Virus record (IMG/VR): IMGVR_UViG_3300037245_002403
Coordinates: 1 to 21,920 of that record
From: a virus
Strand: one strand, 5' to 3'
Length of the DNA: 21,920 nucleotides
How positions within the stretch are numbered: position 1 is the stretch's first letter; every line of letters starts with the position of its first letter. The notes under the pieces were generated by a model. The model was given only the letters and a program-made list of their open reading frames with translations, did no database searches and was not told the origin of the DNA. Below, piece by piece: positions 344 to 11,880 of this stretch. The position numbers were made by a program, and so were the translations under genes.

Positions 344-552
344 GCGCGTCGAGAGAATCCAAACCGAACGACCGAGTCAAGGTGCTCGTCACAACAATAG
401 TGGCGGATATCTACGGCAGCCCGGATCGCTTCGAGTTGTACGTGAGACCCGAGCATGCCGAGATCTCCAAGATCATTCAAATCAAGTACCCCGACGGCAC
501 GCTCGAAGACTGGACCGTCGTCGGTATCTGTCAACCGCGGAGGGATCGATGA
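340..552 (+). CDS. 70-aa hypothetical protein
   Basis: I place the start at GTG 340. AGGAGGT at 329-335 gives good spacing, and the GTGA overlaps the previous stop. An in-frame GTG at 334 lies inside the Shine-Dalgarno sequence and is less likely. The 70-residue product reads as a small alternating beta protein (VKVLVTTIVADIYG, then KIIQIKYPDGTLEDWTVVG) and could be a small barrel or nucleic-acid-binding fold. No family is recognised. Its last codons hold the ribosome-binding site of the methyltransferase gene, and its TGA overlaps that gene's ATG. Confidence 0.55.
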   Translation: MSASRESKPNDRVKVLVTTIVADIYGSPDRFELYVRPEHAEISKIIQIKYPDGTLEDWTVVGICQPRRDR

Positions 553-555
553 ATG
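539..555 (+). promoter_or_regulatory. One Shine-Dalgarno serving two ATGs 4 nt apart
   Basis: GGAGGG at 539-544 precedes ATG 549 (spacer 4 nt) and ATG 553 (spacer 8 nt). The two ATGs open different reading frames, each exactly 331 codons long. The spacing would allow initiation at either start. The ATG at 549 opens the recognised methyltransferase; the ATG at 553 opens the overlapping +1 frame. Confidence 0.45.
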
Positions 556-1544
556 GGTTGGCTCTTTGCGCCGGGATTGGCGCGAGTGATGTGGGACTCA
601 AGCTTGCCATGGGCCGGGCCTACAGAACTGTGGGTTACGTCGAACGGGACGCCTTTGCGAGTTCCGTCATCGTGGCGCGCATGGAAAGCAAGGCCTTGGA
701 TCCGGCTCCTATCTGGGACTGTCTCACAACCTTTGATGGCGCAGCATGGCGCGGGTGTGTGGATATCATCACTGCGGGATTCCCGTGCCAGCCCGCTTCC
801 GTTGCCGGCAGGGGACTGGGCACTGGCGACGAGCGGTGGATCTGGCCTCTCATTGCTCGGGTCATTCGCGATGTGGGACCGCGCTACGTGCTGCTGGAGA
901 ATGTCGCAGGCCTCCTTGGCGTTAATAGCGGAGCGGCGTTCGGAGAGGTTCTCGGGGACTTGGCCGCATGCGGGCTCGATGCGGAGTGGGGTTTGTATAG
1001 CGCGCAAGAGACAGGCGCACCCCATCTCAGGGAGAGGGTCTTCGTATTCGCGTGGGCAGTACCCGACGCCAGCAGCGACACAGTACGGGACGAACCAGGG
1101 CGGTCGGCACCTCGATGGTCCCGTGCGTCCGAGCCTCGAAACGTGGGCGCGGCACTGGCCGACACCTACCGCAGGCGATGCGAAGGGGAGCGGCCAGAGG
1201 TCGGTCGAGACGAACAACGCGAACGACGGGGTGAGCCTGACGGATGCAGCGGTGCGACCGTGGGCCACGCCGGGGGCGAACGACTGGAAGGGCTCAACGA
1301 AGCCGGGTCAGAGGCGGGGGCAGCTCGACGAGCAGGTTACCCACCGCCACCCCACGATGCCGAGGGATGGCGAGAGTGGACCGGGCGACATGGTTTTGGA
1401 CCCGCGTTTCGTCGCGAGTCTCATGAACCTACCTGCGCTTTGGTGCGTGACCGAGTCGACATGCTCCGAGTGCTCGGGAACTCATGCGTCCCGAGCCAAA
1501 TTGAAAACGCCTTTCGAGAGCTGTGGAAAAGGAGCGGACTGTGA
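549..1544 (+). CDS. DNA (cytosine-5) methyltransferase
   Basis: This enzyme transfers a methyl group from S-adenosylmethionine to C5 of cytosine in a specific DNA sequence. Family motifs appear in the right order over 331 residues: motif I LCAGIGASDVG (about 6-16), motif IV GFPCQP with catalytic Cys80, motif VI LLENV (115-119), motif VIII GAPHLRERVF (156-165), and the C-terminal LGNSCVP (309-315). The region between motif VIII and the end (about 170-290) is Arg/Gly/Glu-rich and probably includes the target-recognition part. The chosen ATG overlaps the previous stop (ATGA). Upstream in-frame codons would overlap two earlier genes. No cognate restriction enzyme is visible, so it is probably an orphan phage enzyme that protects or marks phage DNA. 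A second open frame covers the whole gene. Confidence 0.9.
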   Translation: MNGLALCAGIGASDVGLKLAMGRAYRTVGYVERDAFASSVIVARMESKALDPAPIWDCLTTFDGAAWRGCVDIITAGFPCQPASVAGRGLGTGDERWIWPLIARVIRDVGPRYVLLENVAGLLGVNSGAAFGEVLGDLAACGLDAEWGLYSAQETGAPHLRERVFVFAWAVPDASSDTVRDEPGRSAPRWSRASEPRNVGAALADTYRRRCEGERPEVGRDEQRERRGEPDGCSGATVGHAGGERLEGLNEAGSEAGAARRAGYPPPPHDAEGWREWTGRHGFGPAFRRESHEPTCALVRDRVDMLRVLGNSCVPSQIENAFRELWKRSGL

Positions 1545-1548
1545 ATAG
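553..1548 (+). CDS. Candidate overprinted +1-frame ORF over the methyltransferase
   Basis: The +1 frame is open for 331 codons, from ATG 553 to TAG 1546-1548. From about residue 115 on, its product reads like a known type of phage protein rather than random shadow sequence. It shows WRMSQASL (115-122), FSGTWPHAGSMRSG (133-146), YGTNQGG (178-184), RPSLETWAR (192-200), WPTPTAGD (202-209), WATPGANDWKGS (237-248), GQRRGQLDEQ (252-261) and LDPRFVASLMNLP (282-294). From memory, phage proteins often annotated as hypothetical or methyltransferase-like carry such motifs (SWRTSQ.SL, GTWP.SG.MR.G, WPTPTA.D, LNP.WVEWLMG.P). The methyltransferase frame is clearly real. This one may be a second true product, an alternative C-terminus reached by frameshifting, or a shadow that also underlies misannotated database families. 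Confidence 0.3.
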   Translation: MGWLFAPGLARVMWDSSLPWAGPTELWVTSNGTPLRVPSSWRAWKARPWIRLLSGTVSQPLMAQHGAGVWISSLRDSRASPLPLPAGDWALATSGGSGLSLLGSFAMWDRATCCWRMSQASLALIAERRSERFSGTWPHAGSMRSGVCIARKRQAHPISGRGSSYSRGQYPTPAATQYGTNQGGRHLDGPVRPSLETWARHWPTPTAGDAKGSGQRSVETNNANDGVSLTDAAVRPWATPGANDWKGSTKPGQRRGQLDEQVTHRHPTMPRDGESGPGDMVLDPRFVASLMNLPALWCVTESTCSECSGTHASRAKLKTPFESCGKGADCE

Positions 1549-2601: not shown

Positions 2602-3397
2602 TTATCTTGAAAATGTGACAGAAGACCACCCGGTGTTGCCGCCGCGGATATTGATCCACGGGAAGGGAGGAGTCGGCAAGACCACATTGTCTGCTGACCT
2701 GCTCGCCCCGATCTTCATCACCGCGGAGGAGGGACTCGGCACCATCTCGGTGCCCGAGTTCGGGAAGCCGGAAACGTACAACGATGTGATCGGGATGGTC
2801 CGCGATCTCATCACCGAAGACCACAAGTACAAGAGCCTCGTCATCGATACGATCGACAAGATCGAGCCGATGGTATGGCAACATGTGTGCGAAGAAGACA
2901 GCGGCAAGCAGACACACACGCATGTCGAGGGCTTCGGGTTCGGAAAAGGCTACGTGTTTGCTGATCAGTACTGGATCAAGCTCCTCAAGGGGCTCGACCT
3001 CCTGCGACGCAAAGGCATGACGGTATGCCTGCTCGCGCATTCGGAAGTCAAGACCATCAGCGACCCGGTTCTCGGGCCGTACGACATGACTGTGCCGAAG
3101 CTCCACAAGCGAGCGATGGCGCTGATTGTCGAGTGGGCCGATATCGTTGGCCTGCTGGATATCCGTCGCGCCACCATCGACAAGAAGAACGAGGGCAGCA
3201 GCAAGAAGGTGACCACAGCAGTGTCGATAGGGGGTGCGCGATTCATCACGCTCGATCCGGGTGGATCAGGTGAGGCGAAGAACCGCTACGACCTTCCGAG
3301 CCCCATGGATATCCCGAAGGTCAATCCGTTCGCACCGTTGCGAGCGGCCATTGTTCAATCAATCAGTGGCACAACAGAAGTGAAGGAGGTTGCGTAA
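2594..3397 (+). CDS. Sak4/RecA-like AAA ATPase
   Basis: This is a 267-aa P-loop ATPase of the phage AAA_24/Sak4 type, RecA-fold proteins that act with a phage single-strand-binding protein in recombination or replication. Walker A is HGKGGVGKTT (22-31) and Walker B is SLVIDTID (81-88, Asp85). A beta strand, VCLLAHSE, follows and fits the sensor position of this fold. The length is normal for the family. ATG 2594 has GGAGGA at good spacing; an in-frame ATG at 2558 lies within the previous gene without a matching site. A DUF669-like gene and a PD-(D/E)XK nuclease follow at once, which is the usual recombination-module context and supports the call. A ParA-type role is unlikely because the partner genes and C-terminal region do not fit. 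Confidence 0.85.
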   Translation: MASYLENVTEDHPVLPPRILIHGKGGVGKTTLSADLLAPIFITAEEGLGTISVPEFGKPETYNDVIGMVRDLITEDHKYKSLVIDTIDKIEPMVWQHVCEEDSGKQTHTHVEGFGFGKGYVFADQYWIKLLKGLDLLRRKGMTVCLLAHSEVKTISDPVLGPYDMTVPKLHKRAMALIVEWADIVGLLDIRRATIDKKNEGSSKKVTTAVSIGGARFITLDPGGSGEAKNRYDLPSPMDIPKVNPFAPLRAAIVQSISGTTEVKEVA

Positions 3398-3399
3398 TC

Positions 3400-3900
3400 A
3401 TGCCCGAAATCAATCAGGACCTGAGCAACGTCGAAGCCAGCAGCGAGTTCAAGGCGATCCCCACCGGGGTCTACCCCATGGTGATCGTGGACTCGGATTA
3501 CCTGCCGAACAGCAAGGGCACTGGGAGCTACCTGAAGCTGAAGATCCAGTGCCTCGATGAGCAGATCGGGAAGCGGGTTCTCTTCGAGAACCTCAATCTC
3601 GACCACCCCAACGACACCGCGGTGCAGATCGCGAAGGCCGCGCTCAAGGAGATCGCGCAGGCCGTGGGTCACGCCACGCCTGACAAGATCGGCAACAGCG
3701 AGGAGCTTCACGATGTGCCGATGCTGGTGTCGGTGGTGCGGAAGAAGGCCAAAGAGCATCGGCAGCAGTTCGCCGACTCGGACGGCTTCGAGAACGAGAT
3801 CCGCGGCTACAAGGCCATCGGCGGAACCGGTGCCACAGCCGGCGAAGGTTCTGGCGCAGGGGTTGCGCCCCCGCCGGCCACGGGCGACGTTCCCTTCTAA
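3400..3900 (+). CDS. DUF669-like single-strand DNA-binding protein
   Basis: The 166-aa product has a beta-rich core (residues about 20-115) beginning AIPTGVYPMVIVDSDY and including LKLKIQCLDE and VLFENLNL, which fits the DUF669 phage family. A low-complexity Gly/Ala/Pro linker follows, then the tip GDVPF. That layout (OB-like core, flexible linker, short acidic-aromatic end resembling DDIPF of bacterial SSB) suggests it binds single-stranded DNA and recruits partners through its tip. It lies 2 nt after the ATPase stop, with GGAGGT upstream in that gene's last codons. Its TAA overlaps the nuclease ATG. The family assignment is from memory of the fold pattern and context. Confidence 0.78.
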   Translation: MPEINQDLSNVEASSEFKAIPTGVYPMVIVDSDYLPNSKGTGSYLKLKIQCLDEQIGKRVLFENLNLDHPNDTAVQIAKAALKEIAQAVGHATPDKIGNSEELHDVPMLVSVVRKKAKEHRQQFADSDGFENEIRGYKAIGGTGATAGEGSGAGVAPPPATGDVPF

Positions 3901-5374: not shown

Positions 5375-5958
5375 CCCTTCCTCCGTTCAAGCTTCGAGAG
5401 CTTTCTGATGCAGGTGTACTTGCTGGGGTTGCAGTTTACAAAATCCCAGATGTCATCCGGTGACGCCAACTTCGCCGACACCCCGAACTCGAACCCCACA
5501 TCGGCATAGGCCTGCGCCACGAGATACGAGCAGATCGGGAAGTCATCGAGCCCGCCCATCCACTTGAAGAGAGGGTAGATCCCGAACTTGCCGAGGATGC
5601 CATCGAGTGCGTGGAGAACGACCTTCCCGTACCCGTAGGTGTCGCCGTTGTAGAGAGTTGCTCGATCACAGATCTCTTGGCGATCTTCCTCGTTGATGTT
5701 GTTGGGTCTCCAGATGGATACGAGATCTTCACGCCCTCCATAGCACCGCTCGAGATCGTGTATCTGCACGCCCGCGAATATCGCTTCAATGATCGAACCA
5801 TCGCCATCGAGCATGAGCCCGGCGTGGCTCACTACCGACTCGCCCTCGCCGGCTTCCTGTGTGCCAAATCGAATGAGCCTCCCCGCCCACCCAGAACTCC
5901 GCGAGAGCATGATGTCTGCAGACCGATAGTTTGCCGCGACTCGAAGCCCTGTACTCAT
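5371..5958 (-). CDS. Permuted papain-fold hydrolase (YiiX/NlpC-P60-like)
   Basis: The 195-aa product fits the circularly permuted NlpC/P60 superfamily (YiiX/YaeF-like). It has an N-terminal ADIMLSRSSGWAGRLIRFGT segment, then SHAGLML with likely catalytic His45, IIEA with Glu58, and later FPICSYLVAQAY with likely nucleophile Cys143. Relatives are amidases or peptidases acting on cell-wall peptides or acyl-amide bonds. No signal peptide is visible, so like most endolysins it would need a holin or other export help. ATG 5958 overlaps the preceding stop (ATGA); upstream in-frame codons lie inside the secreted-protein gene. Its place before a lipoprotein and a TM protein suggests it is the endolysin or an accessory wall enzyme; proof would need activity data. 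Confidence 0.72.
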   Translation of the reverse strand: MSTGLRVAANYRSADIMLSRSSGWAGRLIRFGTQEAGEGESVVSHAGLMLDGDGSIIEAIFAGVQIHDLERCYGGREDLVSIWRPNNINEEDRQEICDRATLYNGDTYGYGKVVLHALDGILGKFGIYPLFKWMGGLDDFPICSYLVAQAYADVGFEFGVSAKLASPDDIWDFVNCNPSKYTCIRKLSKLERRKG

Positions 5959-7958
5959 CGTAAGATCCCACCCGACAGCGTGAACCCAGATGCCTTCGGT
6001 ATCGTGCCGGCACACTTCAGAGTAGGGTCGTCAGGATAGTCGTTGCAGCAGCTAATTTCGTCAATGGCGAAATCTGCACTCTCTCCTCCATCCTCGTAGT
6101 GGGCGAAGAATCGGATGCCGTCTATGTTGCCAGCAGCATCAGGGCCACCGTCCACGTTGTCCTGCCATACGCTTCCACCGTTCCAAACTTCCGAGTCAGT
6201 ACCGAGCCACACCGCCGCGCAGTCACCAAAATTTCCAGTATCTGGAAGATTCAGTAGAACGCATGTCTCGGCCGTTGCCCCGTAAGCGAATCGGAGTCTG
6301 CGTGTCTCGCCGAGTATCTCGGTGATGCCCTGGAATCGAGGCGAACTCTGCGAGTTATCGTCAGAGCGAAGATAAATCTCAGCGTTATCGGACCCGGGAT
6401 CCGTGTCGTATCGCAGTTTGAGTCCTGAAGCAGCTCCTCCCGCTCCTATCATTTCTATGATGTTGAAAGTATCCACTGAGTCAGGTTCCGACACGAATTG
6501 GATATTCATATCGCAGACGATGGAGTCAGTTACTGGCCACGCATTGTCAAACTCCATCCCCTCGGCCGCTACGGTGTCATTGATCCTTAAAGAGTATTTT
6601 CCGCCGCCGGTCATCTCACCGTAATTGCAGTCTGGGAAGCCATCTACATTAGAGACTTTCGGGTAGCCGGCAGTGTTGCTGCAATTTGCGTCGTTGTATT
6701 CAAAGTTCTCGGAAAAAAGCACTCCGCCCGGGAGCGGTGTTGGCGTAGCGGTGGCAGTCGGCGTGGGCGCTGCGGTCGGCGTTGCAGTCGGCGTGTACCC
6801 TGGCGGCCATGTCGGAGTAGCCGTCGGCGTAGCCGTAGCCGTAGGCGTCGGGCCAGCGGTCGGCGTCGGACCGGGCTCACCTTCGATTTCTTCTGCGGGT
6901 CCGATCCACTGGCCTAGATTGTCAGCCCATTCAGCTTGCATCATGTGGCTGATTCGACGGCTACCCCGCACGGTTTCGTTTATAGTTTCTTCATCTCCGT
7001 GGAAAAGATCGAGAGATATCCGGCTGAGACCACCTCCGTGAGGCTCTGCGCCACCGCCGCCACAGTCGCCAGTTTTGTACGTGCCATGATTGAGCCATTC
7101 GGCAACGACATCATCGCCCTCCCCCGCTCCGTGAAGTGCGGTTACGCGGGTATGCAAAAAATGCGATCCAGAGCCGCTTAGAGTGCCGGATTCCGCACTG
7201 ACGCATGCCTCCATACGGCACCACCCCACATCGACCATGCACTCCTCGAAGGTCATTTTGGGCAATAGCGCGCAGGTGGTACCGGCATGGTGGTGAGCAG
7301 CCTGGATCCATTGCAATGGATCCATGTTTTGACCACTAGGCCCACCCTCGCTCCATTCTCCATTCCTGAGATATTCAGAGGCGTGACAACTGTTTTGAAA
7401 CTTTGTTGAGATTTGCATACCGAGACTGCCACCAAAATCCCACTGATATATTTTCACGCGATGTTCATCGCATTGACCACCCTGCGATGCGCCTGTCCAC
7501 TCTTTCGTCACCTGGAAATAGTAACGCTGGCACATGCGCTTAGTGCCGGAAGAGACAGTGCCTTTGCTGTGTATCCACGTAGTTCCATTGCCGAACTCAT
7601 CGTACCCCATATTGAACACTCCGGTGACAGTGTGCCCTGCTGGCATGTCTATCGGGGCGGGGTTCGTTATGATGTGGTCGTTGCCAAACATGAAGTTCGT
7701 CGGGGAGCCATCCAGGGAAGCCATGCTCTCGCAGGTCTTGCCGGAAGAATCCGCAAATACATCGCAATCTTCGCCCTCGTCTTCATCCGTGCAACACGCA
7801 TACGGATTTCCAGCCGACACGCAGTTGCCGACATCTTGCCAGACTCCCTGCATTTGCGTACTGCAAACACAGTTGTCACCGAGAGTGTCGCATAGCTCCT
7901 CTACCGCGAGGGCGACAGAGGGCAGCAATAGCAGTAGAGCAAGAGCAAGATGTCTCAT
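5955..7958 (-). CDS. Secreted Cys-rich protein C, Thr/Pro linker and eight-Cys domain
   Basis: This 667-aa protein has a canonical Sec signal peptide (MRHLALALLLLLPSVALA, cleavage after ALA at about residue 18). The mature N-terminal half (19-350) has 16 cysteines, including PYACCT (53-57). A PTPTATP-type linker (353-402) follows, then a C-terminal domain (403-640) with 8 cysteines that is paralogous to the end of the neighbouring protein. With 24 cysteines it should fold in an oxidising compartment (periplasm or outside), unlike ordinary virion proteins. The C-terminal domain begins VLFSENFEYND and is beta-rich, resembling a ConA/lectin-like sandwich. The gene overlaps its neighbours by ATGA junctions in the late operon. 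A role in envelope decoration, receptor shielding or adhesion is inference; no catalytic motif was seen. Confidence 0.72.
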   Translation of the reverse strand: MRHLALALLLLLPSVALAVEELCDTLGDNCVCSTQMQGVWQDVGNCVSAGNPYACCTDEDEGEDCDVFADSSGKTCESMASLDGSPTNFMFGNDHIITNPAPIDMPAGHTVTGVFNMGYDEFGNGTTWIHSKGTVSSGTKRMCQRYYFQVTKEWTGASQGGQCDEHRVKIYQWDFGGSLGMQISTKFQNSCHASEYLRNGEWSEGGPSGQNMDPLQWIQAAHHHAGTTCALLPKMTFEECMVDVGWCRMEACVSAESGTLSGSGSHFLHTRVTALHGAGEGDDVVAEWLNHGTYKTGDCGGGGAEPHGGGLSRISLDLFHGDEETINETVRGSRRISHMMQAEWADNLGQWIGPAEEIEGEPGPTPTAGPTPTATATPTATPTWPPGYTPTATPTAAPTPTATATPTPLPGGVLFSENFEYNDANCSNTAGYPKVSNVDGFPDCNYGEMTGGGKYSLRINDTVAAEGMEFDNAWPVTDSIVCDMNIQFVSEPDSVDTFNIIEMIGAGGAASGLKLRYDTDPGSDNAEIYLRSDDNSQSSPRFQGITEILGETRRLRFAYGATAETCVLLNLPDTGNFGDCAAVWLGTDSEVWNGGSVWQDNVDGGPDAAGNIDGIRFFAHYEDGGESADFAIDEISCCNDYPDDPTLKCAGTIPKASGFTLSGGILR
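6039..6752 (-). repeat. Eight-Cys domain, copy in protein C
   Basis: This encodes residues 403-640 of protein C. It matches the C-terminal domain of protein B in order and content: an ENFEYND/ETFETG start, S..VCDM, LRSD.N, LR.A.GAT...C, GDC.A.W, and a closing ISCC..(Y/F)P.DP...C. Cysteines fall at 416, 434, 472, 556, 570, 627, 628 and 639. The spacing is 18, 38, 84, 14, 57, 1 and 11, nearly the same as in protein B. The nucleotide sequences have diverged, so this is an old duplication. Confidence 0.8.
6753..6902 (-). repeat. PTPTATP linker of protein C
   Basis: A 50-codon low-complexity tract of Pro-Thr-Ala repeats (residues 353-402), seen on the + strand as repeated GGCGT(A/C/T)G(C/G)(C/G)GT-like units. 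It separates the Cys-rich N-terminal part from the eight-Cys domain and should form an extended, possibly glycosylated stalk. Such tracts are typical of secreted multidomain bacterial proteins. The simple repeats could also change length by slippage or recombination. Confidence 0.8.
7303..7324. repeat. Perfect 22-bp palindrome inside a coding region
   Basis: TGGATCCATTGCAATGGATCCA is identical to its reverse complement over all 22 bases and includes two GGATCC hexamers. It lies within the gene for protein C and encodes MDPLQWIQ (about residues 202-209). It could be an RNA hairpin, a dimeric protein-binding site or chance. Confidence 0.9.
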
Positions 7959-9727
7959 GGAGCATCACACCTCGTAGCTGGATCAGCAGGGAAGAGGGCG
8001 CAACAGGATATATTGTCGAACGAATGGCGGTATGTGAGATTCCCGCCTCCATTACTTCCCCAATCGAATCCAGTAATAGCACCAGCCGGATCTGGCGCGG
8101 TCCCATCTGCGTTGTCAAAATGGTAACCGTCAGTCTTGTCCCAGTCTTCCCCGACCGCGTTGTACCAGATCGCGTTGCAATCTCCATTGCTCCCAGCGTC
8201 AAGGATACTGTCGTCAATGGCTCTCAGCGCAATGCAGGCCGCTTCGGTCGCCCCGTGAGCGATCCTGAGCTGGAAGGTCGTTCCGACCATCGGGGTAATG
8301 TCTTCTTCGGAAGTATCGGCCGTATTGCTGTCCGACCGCAGCCATATCTTTCCATCACCTTCGGTTCCATCACCGTCTACCTTTAGCGTCGACCCAGCAG
8401 AGCCAAGCTCAGAATACATCTGGAAAAATATCGCATTCACACCTGAATCAGAATCGGCCTCGATCTCGAATAGCATGTCGCACACAACAGAATTGGATGC
8501 GTTCCATATGCTCTTGAATTGTATGATCTGGTTTTGTCCATCATCGTCTATTTCGGCTGCATAGGTGCCGCCGCTTTCTTCCATCCCAGTCCAGGCGCAA
8601 TCAGGATTTTGGACGTCGTGGCTAATATTCGGATGATCAGCGTGCTTGCAAACCGTTTGGCCTGTCTCGAAGGTTTCCAGCGCCAGCAAGACATTAGGAT
8701 CTGCGGCCGGCGTAGCCGTAGGTGTAGAGGTAGGCGTCGGCGGGACGTTCGTCGGCGTGGCCGTCGCTGTCGAGACTGGTGTAGACGTCGGCGGACCGGC
8801 AGTCGGTGTCGGCGTCGGCGTCGCGGTCGGCGTCGGCTCCGCGTATTCACACGCATTACACTGCGCAGATCGGTCAGAAGCCAGCCCGCTCAATCCAAAC
8901 CGGCAGATTGAACAAATCTCGCGGTCAGTCATCGCAGTGCTGAAGTGGAAGCACTCGTAGAGTTGGCCATCCAAGAAGCCTGATGAGCCGCGTCCACCCA
9001 CCAATAGGTTTATGCTTTGAGAAAGAGTGTCATCTTTGGTGGAACAAGGACCATTACAGTCCTCCACTCCATTGACAAAGATTTCGTTTTTTGTAGCGCA
9101 ACCTGTCTCTGAGCCAGTGCAGCACGCCCAAGGAATATCCTCTGCGGTGCAGCCCGTTGCGTCTGCTTTGTGACGACCGACTACATGCGCCCAGGTGTAC
9201 TGCGCCATCGTATCAGTCGCCGTTCTCTCAACAGTACTCTTGAACCAATACTCAGGACGGTAGCCAGCCGAGTACGTCCGCAGGGCGATTGTATTGGTGT
9301 CGTCATCTATTATCGTAGAAACCTGATCTGCTTCCATCCTCACCCAGCAACCCAAGGTGTTTTCCGTTACGCCATATCTCGCGTCCGAGACGATATCGAA
9401 CCTCATGCTGCCATCGAAGTCAGTAGCGTTGCTTCCGCCACCAGGGTCTGTGCCGCTAGACCATGTTCCCGATGCCCACACGGCATTGTTGGCCACCCCA
9501 TTTGTAACTCCGCACACATCTCTCTCGGCACTTGTTTCGTCAGCGCCGCTCAATATCCAACAGCCCTCGATGTCGGGGTCTGCCATGAATGCAGGTAGCG
9601 CGGTCGGCGTAGCGGTCGGCGTTGCCGAGGGAGTTGCGGTTGGTGTAGGCCCCTGGTCCCATACAACGAGCACGCCGAGGTTGAAGTAGGCAAAAAGCGC
9701 GATCAGTAGTACGCGACAAATACTCAT
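7955..9727 (-). CDS. Exported Cys-rich LamG-like protein B with two Thr/Pro linkers
   Basis: From ATG 9727 (ATGA overlap with the upstream gene) this is a 590-aa protein. It begins MSICRVLLIALFAYFNLGVLVV, a signal anchor or weak signal peptide with no clear cleavage site. A PTPTATP linker (26-45) follows, then a Cys-rich domain (about 51-290) with a LamG/ConA-like pattern (DFDGSMRFDI, LGCWVRM, WAHVVGRHK, IFVNGVED, LLVGGRG..FLDGQLYECFHF). A second linker (297-343) leads to the eight-Cys domain (346-588). It has 23 cysteines in total. LamG folds bind glycans or proteins, so a surface-binding role is likely. The N-terminal anchor could hold it in the host membrane, with the stalked domains projecting outward. 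It lies between the other two exported proteins in the same coupled operon. Confidence 0.72.
   Translation of the reverse strand: MSICRVLLIALFAYFNLGVLVVWDQGPTPTATPSATPTATPTALPAFMADPDIEGCWILSGADETSAERDVCGVTNGVANNAVWASGTWSSGTDPGGGSNATDFDGSMRFDIVSDARYGVTENTLGCWVRMEADQVSTIIDDDTNTIALRTYSAGYRPEYWFKSTVERTATDTMAQYTWAHVVGRHKADATGCTAEDIPWACCTGSETGCATKNEIFVNGVEDCNGPCSTKDDTLSQSINLLVGGRGSSGFLDGQLYECFHFSTAMTDREICSICRFGLSGLASDRSAQCNACEYAEPTPTATPTPTPTAGPPTSTPVSTATATPTNVPPTPTSTPTATPAADPNVLLALETFETGQTVCKHADHPNISHDVQNPDCAWTGMEESGGTYAAEIDDDGQNQIIQFKSIWNASNSVVCDMLFEIEADSDSGVNAIFFQMYSELGSAGSTLKVDGDGTEGDGKIWLRSDSNTADTSEEDITPMVGTTFQLRIAHGATEAACIALRAIDDSILDAGSNGDCNAIWYNAVGEDWDKTDGYHFDNADGTAPDPAGAITGFDWGSNGGGNLTYRHSFDNISCCALFPADPATRCDAP
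7958..8692 (-). repeat. Eight-Cys domain, copy in protein B
   Basis: This encodes residues 346-590 of protein B, the paralogue of the C-terminal domain of protein C. Cysteines are at 360, 377, 416, 498, 517, 575, 576 and 587, with spacing 17, 39, 82, 19, 58, 1 and 11. Shared motifs are SVVCDM, LRSDSN, LRIAHGAT, GDCNAIW and the end ISCC..FP.DP...C. The domain is beta-rich and Asp/Gly-rich, consistent with a jelly-roll or ConA-like fold stabilised by disulfides. Confidence 0.8.
8699..8839 (-). repeat. Second PTPTATP linker of protein B
   Basis: A 47-codon Pro/Thr/Ala/Ser tract (residues 297-343), with units such as PTPTATPTPTPTAG and PTSTPVSTATATP. It joins the LamG-like region to the eight-Cys domain. 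Its composition matches the linker of protein C, which supports shared origin or repeated spread of the linker between the two genes. Confidence 0.8.
9593..9652 (-). repeat. First PTPTATP linker of protein B
   Basis: A 20-codon tract (residues 26-45, starting GPTPTATPSATPT) directly after the N-terminal hydrophobic segment. Its position suggests a stalk that lifts the LamG-like domain away from the membrane. Confidence 0.8.
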
Positions 9728-11880
9728 TTCGTGTACGAAACCTGACAGTGAATAAATTGACCAGACAGAACTTGGCTGACTATCTCTATCCCGAACCACT
9801 CATCTTCAGCGACTGTGCAATTCGCATTGCAAGTACCAGTGCCGTAATTGACGTTCCTCGCAGACAGGTTGGCATACAGATTGGTCCACGCCCTATCGGT
9901 GCCAGTCGTACTGTACTTGACCACCTCAAATCTTTGATTGTTAGGAGATGTGTCCCCGGTTGCAAGGCATTTGAATTCGTAAATCACGTACTCGGAGTTG
10001 GCCTTTCCGCACATAATATTGTCATCAACCGCTCCGAACTCCCACATGATGTTGCACTCGTCGTACTGCGTTGTCAGATCGCGCTCAAGCTGTGTAGAGT
10101 CTCCCTTGCTGTAGAGAATCCCATCGCCCTTGGTGAATAGCTTGAGCCGCCCCGTCCCTGCATTGGTGACGGTATCACTCGCCCCCTGGTTTTTGAGTTC
10201 AAGCACGCATTCCAATGCGCTACCCGGATCACATGTTGCTTCAAGAGAGCCCGCGGTAAACTCAGAGTCTGGGCCAAGCGTGACGTTTTCTCCTGACACC
10301 GACGAGTTTGCCACGGCACCGAACGTCGTTTCATCCTGCCGGTACTGAAGCTCAGAGCCTGCGCCACCCGGCGCGTTGCCTTCACCACCAGTGTCGCCCG
10401 CAGCGCAGTCGCCTGTAGCCGCGATCAGTACGCCGGAAGCATCGAATCGAGCGCACTTTGACGCAACCGTAGTGTTCTTGATCTCTGGTGAACTGGCGAG
10501 ATCGATATGCAGCGCCGAGTGCGCGGCATTCACACCAGCCTCTACAACGTGCGCAGTCAGGTCTGCCAACTCGATGTCAGCGATGCAAAGCTCTCCGGCA
10601 TCCTTGGTGCCATCATCGTCGAGGTCTTGAAATGCACACGCTGCCGTCACATCCCACGCCACGCAGGCGGGACCAGTCACGCGATCCCCGACACAGATTC
10701 TTCCGTCAAGCTTCAGCGCCTCGTTGATCATCCGCGCAGTAGGAGTGCCATCGTGGTCTGGGTCAAAGTAAATGTTGCCATTGGCCTGACGGACGTAAGG
10801 GTCTTCCGCGCCTTCCGTGCCATCATTATCAAGCACCTCAGCAGACGCAGCCGGGTCGGCGTTGCCGGGAGTACCATCCCCGCAGTCACCCGTAGCCGCG
10901 ACCAGTATCCCGCCGGCATCGAACCGAGCGCACTTGCTGGCTGCCGAGCTGTCCTCCACGGACTGCGACGAGTCCAAGTCAATCGCTATTGCCGGGTGAG
11001 CATCCGAGGCTGCATCGTGTGCAGTCAGATCGGCCTGATCGATATCGGCGATACAAAGCTCGCCCGCGTCCTTGGTGCCGTCGTCATCGAGGTCCTGGAA
11101 TGCGCACGCCGCCGTCACATCCCATGCCATGCAGGCAAGGGCATCGCCCTCTTCCACATCACCTACGCAGACGCGTCCAGCGAACCGGCCACCGCTTGCC
11201 ACGAACTTCTGGTACTCGTTCCAGTCACCCGTGTTGGGCGCGCTGTTCACGATCGTCTCGCCCACCTCGCCACCCGTGGGCAGCGAGCCGCCAGCAACGC
11301 CCGGGATGGTGCAAGTCGTCCTGCTGCTTCCGGGGTCATCGAGACACTCGACGCCCGTGCCCGCCACGTTCAGCGTGCGCTGGTCAGGCAGGTTGGAGCC
11401 GTCGTCTTGGATGACATGCCCACCGCTCCCGTACTCAACTCCCCACTCGTCGCTGGTGTCGTCCCATCTCATATTCGGAATGTTTGGGCACACCAAGAAG
11501 ACCGTACCGCCACCAGCGCCAGCGTCCACGGTTCGCACCATCGCGTACCCACGCGTGAAGATCACTGGCTGCGGCTGTTGGTCATGGATAGTCATATCGA
11601 GAATACGGGTACAACTTGATCGGTCGCTATCGACTGCCGGGCAATCGTAAAGCGAGACTACAGAGTTGCTGCCGCCCATATAGACTTCTGTTCCAGGGAT
11701 ACATGCAGTCATGTCTTGGTGCAGCGGAGGCCCGTCGCCGACAACAGAGAACCCGTAGCTGAACGTGACCGTGTTAAGCGTTTGAAGATTCTCGACGGTG
11801 TTTGTGTTGCTCCACGGCTGGCCGCTCGAGATTCCAGGCAGCAGGAGTATCAAAGCGAGGAACAGCAGTACCTTTCTCAT
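9724..11880 (-). CDS. Secreted protein A with EF-hand repeats and fibre-like region
   Basis: This 718-aa protein starts with a strong Sec signal peptide (MRKVLLFLALILLLPGISSG, cleavage near residue 20). It has 26 cysteines. Two about 105-residue repeats (235-337 and 393-496) share AWDVTAACAFQDLDDDGTKD, SKCARFDA.G and AATGDC. Each contains a full 12-residue EF-hand loop (DLDDDGTKDAGE, 263-274 and 419-430) with Asp at 1, 3, 5 and 9 and Glu at 12, so it should bind calcium. After that, GGAGSELQYRQDETTFGA (about 505-522) resembles modules found in phage tail fibres and bacterial adhesins. ATG 11880 overlaps the stop of the tail-collar gene (TAATG). A secreted fibre or adhesin acting at the host surface is the best inference; a virion protein with an unusual leader is possible. 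Confidence 0.72.
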   Translation of the reverse strand: MRKVLLFLALILLLPGISSGQPWSNTNTVENLQTLNTVTFSYGFSVVGDGPPLHQDMTACIPGTEVYMGGSNSVVSLYDCPAVDSDRSSCTRILDMTIHDQQPQPVIFTRGYAMVRTVDAGAGGGTVFLVCPNIPNMRWDDTSDEWGVEYGSGGHVIQDDGSNLPDQRTLNVAGTGVECLDDPGSSRTTCTIPGVAGGSLPTGGEVGETIVNSAPNTGDWNEYQKFVASGGRFAGRVCVGDVEEGDALACMAWDVTAACAFQDLDDDGTKDAGELCIADIDQADLTAHDAASDAHPAIAIDLDSSQSVEDSSAASKCARFDAGGILVAATGDCGDGTPGNADPAASAEVLDNDGTEGAEDPYVRQANGNIYFDPDHDGTPTARMINEALKLDGRICVGDRVTGPACVAWDVTAACAFQDLDDDGTKDAGELCIADIELADLTAHVVEAGVNAAHSALHIDLASSPEIKNTTVASKCARFDASGVLIAATGDCAAGDTGGEGNAPGGAGSELQYRQDETTFGAVANSSVSGENVTLGPDSEFTAGSLEATCDPGSALECVLELKNQGASDTVTNAGTGRLKLFTKGDGILYSKGDSTQLERDLTTQYDECNIMWEFGAVDDNIMCGKANSEYVIYEFKCLATGDTSPNNQRFEVVKYSTTGTDRAWTNLYANLSARNVNYGTGTCNANCTVAEDEWFGIEIVSQVLSGQFIHCQVSYTK
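10393..10704 (-). repeat. EF-hand repeat, unit 2
   Basis: Codes for residues 393-496 of protein A. It is similar in protein and DNA to unit 1: the stretch around 10618-10675 closely matches that around 11086-11140. It includes the calcium-loop sequence DLDDDGTKDAGE and four of the same cysteine positions. The high DNA similarity points to a fairly recent or homogenised duplication. Confidence 0.85.
10870..11178 (-). repeat. EF-hand repeat, unit 1
   Basis: Codes for residues 235-337 of protein A, starting GRVCVGD and ending GDCGDGTP. It is aligned with unit 2 over its full length, with small differences after ADLTAH. The two units are separated by a 55-residue spacer that carries a weaker, incomplete calcium-like motif (DPDHDGTP). 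Confidence 0.85.

Follow-up and report, generated by a model that had tools for sequence, protein, structure and literature searches.

A phage C5-cytosine DNA methyltransferase probably encoded as two subunits in overlapping frames of one stretch of DNA

Main finding

In a 21,920-base viral contig (the whole stretch analysed, here called the window), two long reading frames share the same DNA, and we conclude, with a probability of about 0.88, that these frames specify the two subunits of a heterodimeric C5-cytosine DNA methyltransferase. The frame 0 product, alpha, would be the AdoMet-binding catalytic large domain, built from motifs I–VIII together with motif X, which packs back against the domain from the C-terminus; in place of the small domain of ordinary enzymes, alpha would have only a disordered linker that must stay open. 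The +1 product, beta, would provide the small domain, with motif IX and with WPTPTAxD modules expected to determine the target sequence, and the two chains should assemble like those of M.EcoHK31I. Such an alpha–beta enzyme would methylate the phage’s own DNA, presumably as protection against host restriction. In most relatives, beta would be initiated at an internal codon just 5′ of the PCQ; in the window, as in a minority of relatives, it would more likely be initiated at an ATG 4 nt past the alpha start, with the Shine-Dalgarno sequence shared.

Two reading frames at one locus

The virus record carries a head and tail module (with an SU10-type capsid protein), and directly 3′ of the methyltransferase lies a recombination module with a Sak4-like annealing protein, a single-strand binding protein and a Cas4-type exonuclease. 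On the plus strand, where all features of the locus lie, a Shine-Dalgarno sequence, GGAGGG (539..544), is located 4 nt 5′ of the ATG at 549 and 8 nt 5′ of the ATG at 553, as read from the sequence and by Shine-Dalgarno scoring. These two codons belong to a double start, ATGAATG (549..555), in which the alpha ATG at 549 overlaps a +1 TGA (550–552) and is followed by the beta-frame ATG at 553. The alpha ORF (549..1544, frame 0, 331 aa) contains motifs I–VIII and X with the disordered linker between them; the beta ORF (553..1548, frame +1, 331 codons) is recognized by a PHROG_1008 match and a beta HMM score, and contains the beta core (target recognition and motif IX) at ~853–1548. An earlier note on this DNA had reported the GGAGGG, the two ATGs and two 331-codon ORFs ending at 1544 and 1548, and all of these, together with every peptide it quoted, are present in the sequence. 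The equal length on which it remarked is true of both ORFs but is by itself no evidence of coding, because it follows from ATGAATGG, in which the TGA is the +1 codon preceding 553, and from a nearby stop.

Alpha has the features of a catalytic large domain

Frame 0 was thought in the earlier note to have all C5-methyltransferase motifs, but its PF00145 match (1.8e-26) covers residues 2–169 only, that is, motifs I–VIII. The complete set expected of a single-chain C5-cytosine methyltransferase is split, with IX in +1 and X at the end of frame 0. What alpha does share with the PF00145 class is motifs I–VIII, the PCQ nucleophile and the AdoMet fold, as seen in the Pfam match and in the AF2 model compared with M.HhaI. 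The PCQ of motif IV, with the catalytic Cys80, is at 783..791 and the ENV at 897, both in frame 0. Motif X (MLRVLGNSCVPSQIENAFREL..., 1461..1541), read as LRVLGNSCVPSQ, is again in frame 0, as indicated by alpha-phase substitutions and a confident C-terminal helix in the AF2 model. The linker between VIII and X is rich in R, E, G and D. AF2 confidence follows the same division: pLDDT is ~95 for residues 1–170, below 50 across most of 175–306, and 92–97 for ~310–331. The model matches M.HhaI with a Z of 22.7, with 197 of 327 residues aligned and the alignment spanning model residues 1..331. Taken together, this confidence pattern and the M.HhaI match indicate that alpha is a complete large domain in which a floppy linker replaces the small domain. 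A reading of alpha as a carboxymethyltransferase (CmoX) was rejected, as GFPC is present instead of the SPPC signature (PMC12783734). In one relative (L056), the motif VIII segment GAPHKRDRIWIV occurs again within the alpha linker, which looks like a partial duplication of VIII and the recognition region.

Beta carries the recognition region and motif IX

The stretch at 861..1058 is dual-coding, with alpha motifs VI–VIII in frame 0 and the conserved N-terminal core of beta (SFA.WDRATCCWRMSQASL ... GTWPHAGSMRSG) in +1. It is followed at 1060..1395 by the target-recognition region (TRD) of beta in +1, opposite the alpha linker in frame 0 and marked by beta-phase substitutions and modules, and then at 1396..1446 by motif IX (LDPRFVASLMNLPALWC), also in +1 with beta-phase substitutions. 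The family consensus of this motif is LNPxWVEWLMGFPxGW; the window copy is degenerate, with SLMNLP where the family has WLMGFP. We assign it to motif IX because two relatives (L175 and L004) carry the same motif in frame 0, inside near full-length PF00145 matches. With I–VIII and X in frame 0, and the TRD and IX in +1, the large domain therefore belongs to frame 0 and the small domain to +1.

The PHROG_1008 profile (‘DNA methyltransferase’) matches the window beta (1.6e-24, residues 73–305) and 108 of 108 aligned betas; among Pfam and NCBIfam models, none matches any of these 108 or the window beta. The window beta sequence alone retrieved no relatives from viral contigs, and alignments were required to find them. 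A sequence search of the PDB with beta found no solved-structure relative, and AF2 modelled beta on its own poorly (pLDDT 61, pTM 0.28), too poorly for a fold search; this might be expected of a chain that requires a partner, but it proves nothing. The last two results would also suit a separate overprinted protein with some other function, for example in regulation or anti-restriction. We consider this improbable, as beta ends in the motif IX that is absent from alpha, alpha has no structured TRD in its AF2 model, the frame change in L175 and L004 places IX within alpha, and a few loci hold the TRD, IX and X together in +1. All of these point instead to beta as the small domain.

Selection acts on the +1 frame

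We generated 2000 synonymous shuffles of the window’s frame 0; the +1 frame was fully open in 0.05% of them and open from codon 102 in 2.35%. Against a beta HMM trained on 136 loci other than the window, the window’s +1 frame scored 152.1 bits, compared to 38.9 ± 10.7 for the shuffles and a shuffle maximum of 73.1. Synonymous codon use, measured in 146 dereplicated loci, is near background in motifs I–V and extreme beyond alpha residue ~105 (window nt ~861). Examples of frozen codons are the Arg of LRP (CGA in 99/107, 15.5 expected), the Val of VLEN (GTG in 69/69, 16.6 expected), the Ala of GDLA (GCC in 114/114, 41 expected) and the Gly of GYDAEW (GGG in 130/140, 34 expected). The window shares the family codon at 18 of the 24 frozen sites, one of which is a codon-invariant Trp.

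Substitution rates in 69–74 independent locus pairs were resolved by alpha codon position, where alpha position 1 is the wobble base of beta. At positions 1/2/3, the rates have alpha phase in motifs I–IV (0.184/0.116/0.434) and from the PCQ to just before ENV (0.150/0.105/0.394), mixed phase in VI–VIII (0.193/0.096/0.273), and beta phase in the recognition region (0.378/0.145/0.104) and IX (0.250/0.098/0.076), before returning to alpha phase from the end of IX to the alpha end, which includes X (0.179/0.103/0.381). This switching shows that the coding frame runs from 0 to both, then to +1 and back to 0. The nearest relative of the window has 42% alpha identity; with no closer one, the case for selection in the window itself is made by the shuffles and by distant comparison. 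In that comparison, the window’s VIII–X segment aligned to 210 relatives with a median z of 6.96 in +1 (176 above 4), versus 0.48 in frame 0 (4 above 4).

Overprinting by two proteins, the first of three explanations offered in the earlier note, was to be abandoned if +1 had no homologues outside methyltransferase loci and no purifying selection, or if close relatives had stops there. Codon constraint and substitution phase show selection in +1, and from ~45 nt before the PCQ onward relatives have 18 +1 stops where ~557 are expected. The shuffles, substitution phase and stop avoidance thus bear out this first explanation, and these sequence data make it nearly certain that beta is a translated protein. 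Homologues of beta, which the note proposed to look for, do exist; all are at methyltransferase loci and none elsewhere, as a nested subunit predicts.

The note’s third explanation, frameshifting that joins the two frames, would take the form of a programmed +1 shift near the end of VIII that fuses I–VIII to TRD–IX in one chain. Every transition goes in one direction and some actinophages (L009, L010) close frame 0 just past VIII, as such a shift would allow; however, constraint on the new frame should then appear only past the shift site, and here it is already present in VI–VIII, beginning ~65 codons before the end of VIII and 5′ of the only useful junction. Motif X, moreover, is back in frame 0 and still selected there, so the full alpha must be made. 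Because the +1 constraint precedes the junction and X stays constrained in frame 0, we regard frameshifting as very unlikely; pairs of an internal Shine-Dalgarno and start 5′ of beta in a subset of loci also speak against it, and no slippery site was noticed, although not by systematic search. That the +1 frame is a non-coding shadow, in which frame 0 motifs and codon bias give look-alike peptides and the PHROG_1008 annotation is an artefact, is barely credible: the beta family is indeed found on methyltransferase DNA only, and shuffled genes still reaching ~39 bits mean that part of the likeness is shadow, but the real score is twice the shuffle maximum (152 versus 73), +1 stops are avoided, and the phase switch already contradicts it, with the beta wobble base fastest and the alpha third position slowest in the TRD and IX. 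The earlier note’s second explanation, a database family that is a shadow of methyltransferases, therefore holds only for where PHROG_1008 is found; the family itself is a constrained protein.

The nested arrangement is widespread

Scans of viral contigs yielded more than 160 loci, and further loci came from plasmids, more phages and bacterial genomes of many phyla. The best beta match is in +1 of the best alpha match in 172 of 172 viral and phage loci that have both, with none standalone, and in 87 of 89 plasmid, phage and bacterial-genome loci, counts in which a bias toward a conserved +1 frame is present as most loci were fetched by beta similarity. Beta is also in +1 in five loci that were retrieved through alpha only (L008, L009, L010, L091 and L092). 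Judged from these matches, the nested arrangement is present in hundreds of phages and bacteria. In each of the two exceptions, alpha itself is broken: in L184 (Mycobacterium phage Llama, 894–1653) and L218 (~2883–3734), the alpha frame changes between V/VI and VII/VIII, and in Llama this leaves two annotated ‘DNA methylase’ genes. The break may reflect a sequencing error, decay or a further frame trick.

In the majority layout, found in 228 loci, frame 0 holds X and +1 holds IX. Nine loci (L175, L217, L230, L003, L004, L035, L082, L088 and L089) have IX and X in frame 0 and only the recognition region, with its WPTPTA repeats, still in +1. Two of them, L082 and L088, have a +1 frame that closes early; loci of this type may be degenerating or differently organized. 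In a third layout, found in three or so loci, the TRD, IX and X are all in +1.

Most annotation covers just one chain of the pair. Nested +1 betas have been deposited as Paenibacillus phage Shelly gp56 (‘g55 internal gene’) and Escherichia phage K1G gp35. Some records give beta and miss alpha; in Synechococcus phage Sc-Yong805-2 (L002, 1339–2268), beta is deposited as a ‘hypothetical protein’ and the intact alpha frame is unannotated. In an E. coli prophage in RefSeq, alpha alone is annotated, though the beta frame is open.

Likely starts of beta

Among the relatives, +1 stops are mildly depleted up to codon −16 before the PCQ (176 seen, 363 expected) and nearly absent beyond it, and from this onset we infer that +1 translation usually begins 20–45 nt 5′ of the PCQ. 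Where a Shine-Dalgarno lies at −34 to −28 of the PCQ, a start is found at −23 or −20 in 27 of 31 loci, and the deposited beta starts of Shelly and K1G are internal, with ORFs that are not co-extensive with alpha.

A different pattern is seen in the 27 of 123 dereplicated loci, the window among them, that have an NTGAATG-type alpha start. The +1 frame is open from the alpha start in 25 of these 27, versus 30 of the 96 others (Fisher 6e-9, inflated by shared descent), and shuffles of the NTGAATG loci predict 15.2 of 27 open rather than 25 (P < 5e-6, likewise inflated by shared descent). In this subgroup, the sequences suggest that one Shine-Dalgarno may serve both subunits. The likeliest beta start in the window is ATG 553, because it is the sole +1 start with a good Shine-Dalgarno; the internal candidates (ATG 736, GTG 757 and TTG 853) lack one. 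A start of the 553 type was ruled out for the family as a whole: among dereplicated loci in which an alpha start was called, roughly one in two has +1 stops 5′ of the PCQ.

Comparison with known two-chain methyltransferases

Lee reportedly found in 1995 that the small-subunit gene of M.EcoHK31I is nested within the large-subunit gene in a different frame; here, such a nested second gene is shown by the +1 overlap, which is under selection. In M.EcoHK31I, the larger chain has motifs I–VIII and X and the smaller chain has IX (PMC3404938). The window resembles this enzyme (and M.EaeI), with I–VIII and X in alpha and IX on a second polypeptide, and 228 loci share the layout; this kind of enzyme is therefore already known. 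Several features differ. The predicted TRD of M.EcoHK31I was placed in the larger subunit (PMC3404938), whereas here the TRD evolves in the small-subunit frame; the window’s two ORFs, unlike those of M.EcoHK31I, are co-extensive with starts 4 nt apart; and M.EcoHK31I is part of a restriction-modification system, whereas no endonuclease gene was recognized among the window genes examined. M.AquI is likewise a split C5-methyltransferase with its catalytic part and its TRD/IX part on separate chains, but its second chain also bears X (PMC3404938), which is like the minority type of L009, L010 and L052 and unlike the window.

PHROG_1008 is the beta family itself, and PHROGs makes no mention of its +1 partnership with another methyltransferase gene. 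A widespread nested arrangement is not described in the literature searched, and the main text of the GeneTack survey (PMC3711429) mentions no such methyltransferase cluster. Thus, the two-polypeptide kind is known from M.EcoHK31I and an internal methyltransferase gene has been noted in a few phage records; new here are the breadth of the arrangement, the placing of the TRD in beta, the modular TRD arrays and the NTGAATG double-start subgroup.

These results have practical implications. Because beta has no Pfam or NCBIfam model, many methyltransferases of phages and prophages have a putative specificity half that goes unseen or carries the wrong label, and methylome work that expresses alpha alone would be expected to find it inactive. 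The alpha/beta overlap is long, lies on one strand and is conserved widely among prokaryotes, with each domain of the enzyme evolving in its own frame, and the pair is well suited to testing both overlapping-gene evolution and split methyltransferase tools.

Recognition modules in beta

The variable region of beta consists of W/L-PTPTAxD units spaced at ~34 residues. The window has three in frame +1, at 1060 (YPTPAATQYG), 1156 (WPTPTAGDAKGSG) and 1261 (WATPGANDWKGS); across the beta ORFs of 229 loci, the number is 0–7 and usually one to four. Module number differs in 11 of 37 close pairs (≥88% identity over ≥350 nt), which suggests gain and loss, or exchange, of modules between close relatives. 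Multispecific phage methyltransferases have exchangeable recognition domains, and the beta array, by analogy, resembles these.

More tentatively, and with somewhat less than even confidence, we propose that, for the window and the other NTGAATG loci, two starts 4 nt apart in different frames behind one Shine-Dalgarno would let a single initiation region set the subunit ratio, with the first ~100 beta codons translated but unconstrained, and that a frame-locked pair with shuffling, +1-only WPTPTAxD modules could serve phages broadly as a platform for altering methylation specificity.

Elsewhere in the window (5955–9799, minus strand), two adjacent probable virion proteins contain long PTPTATPT-type repeats that link otherwise distinct domains.
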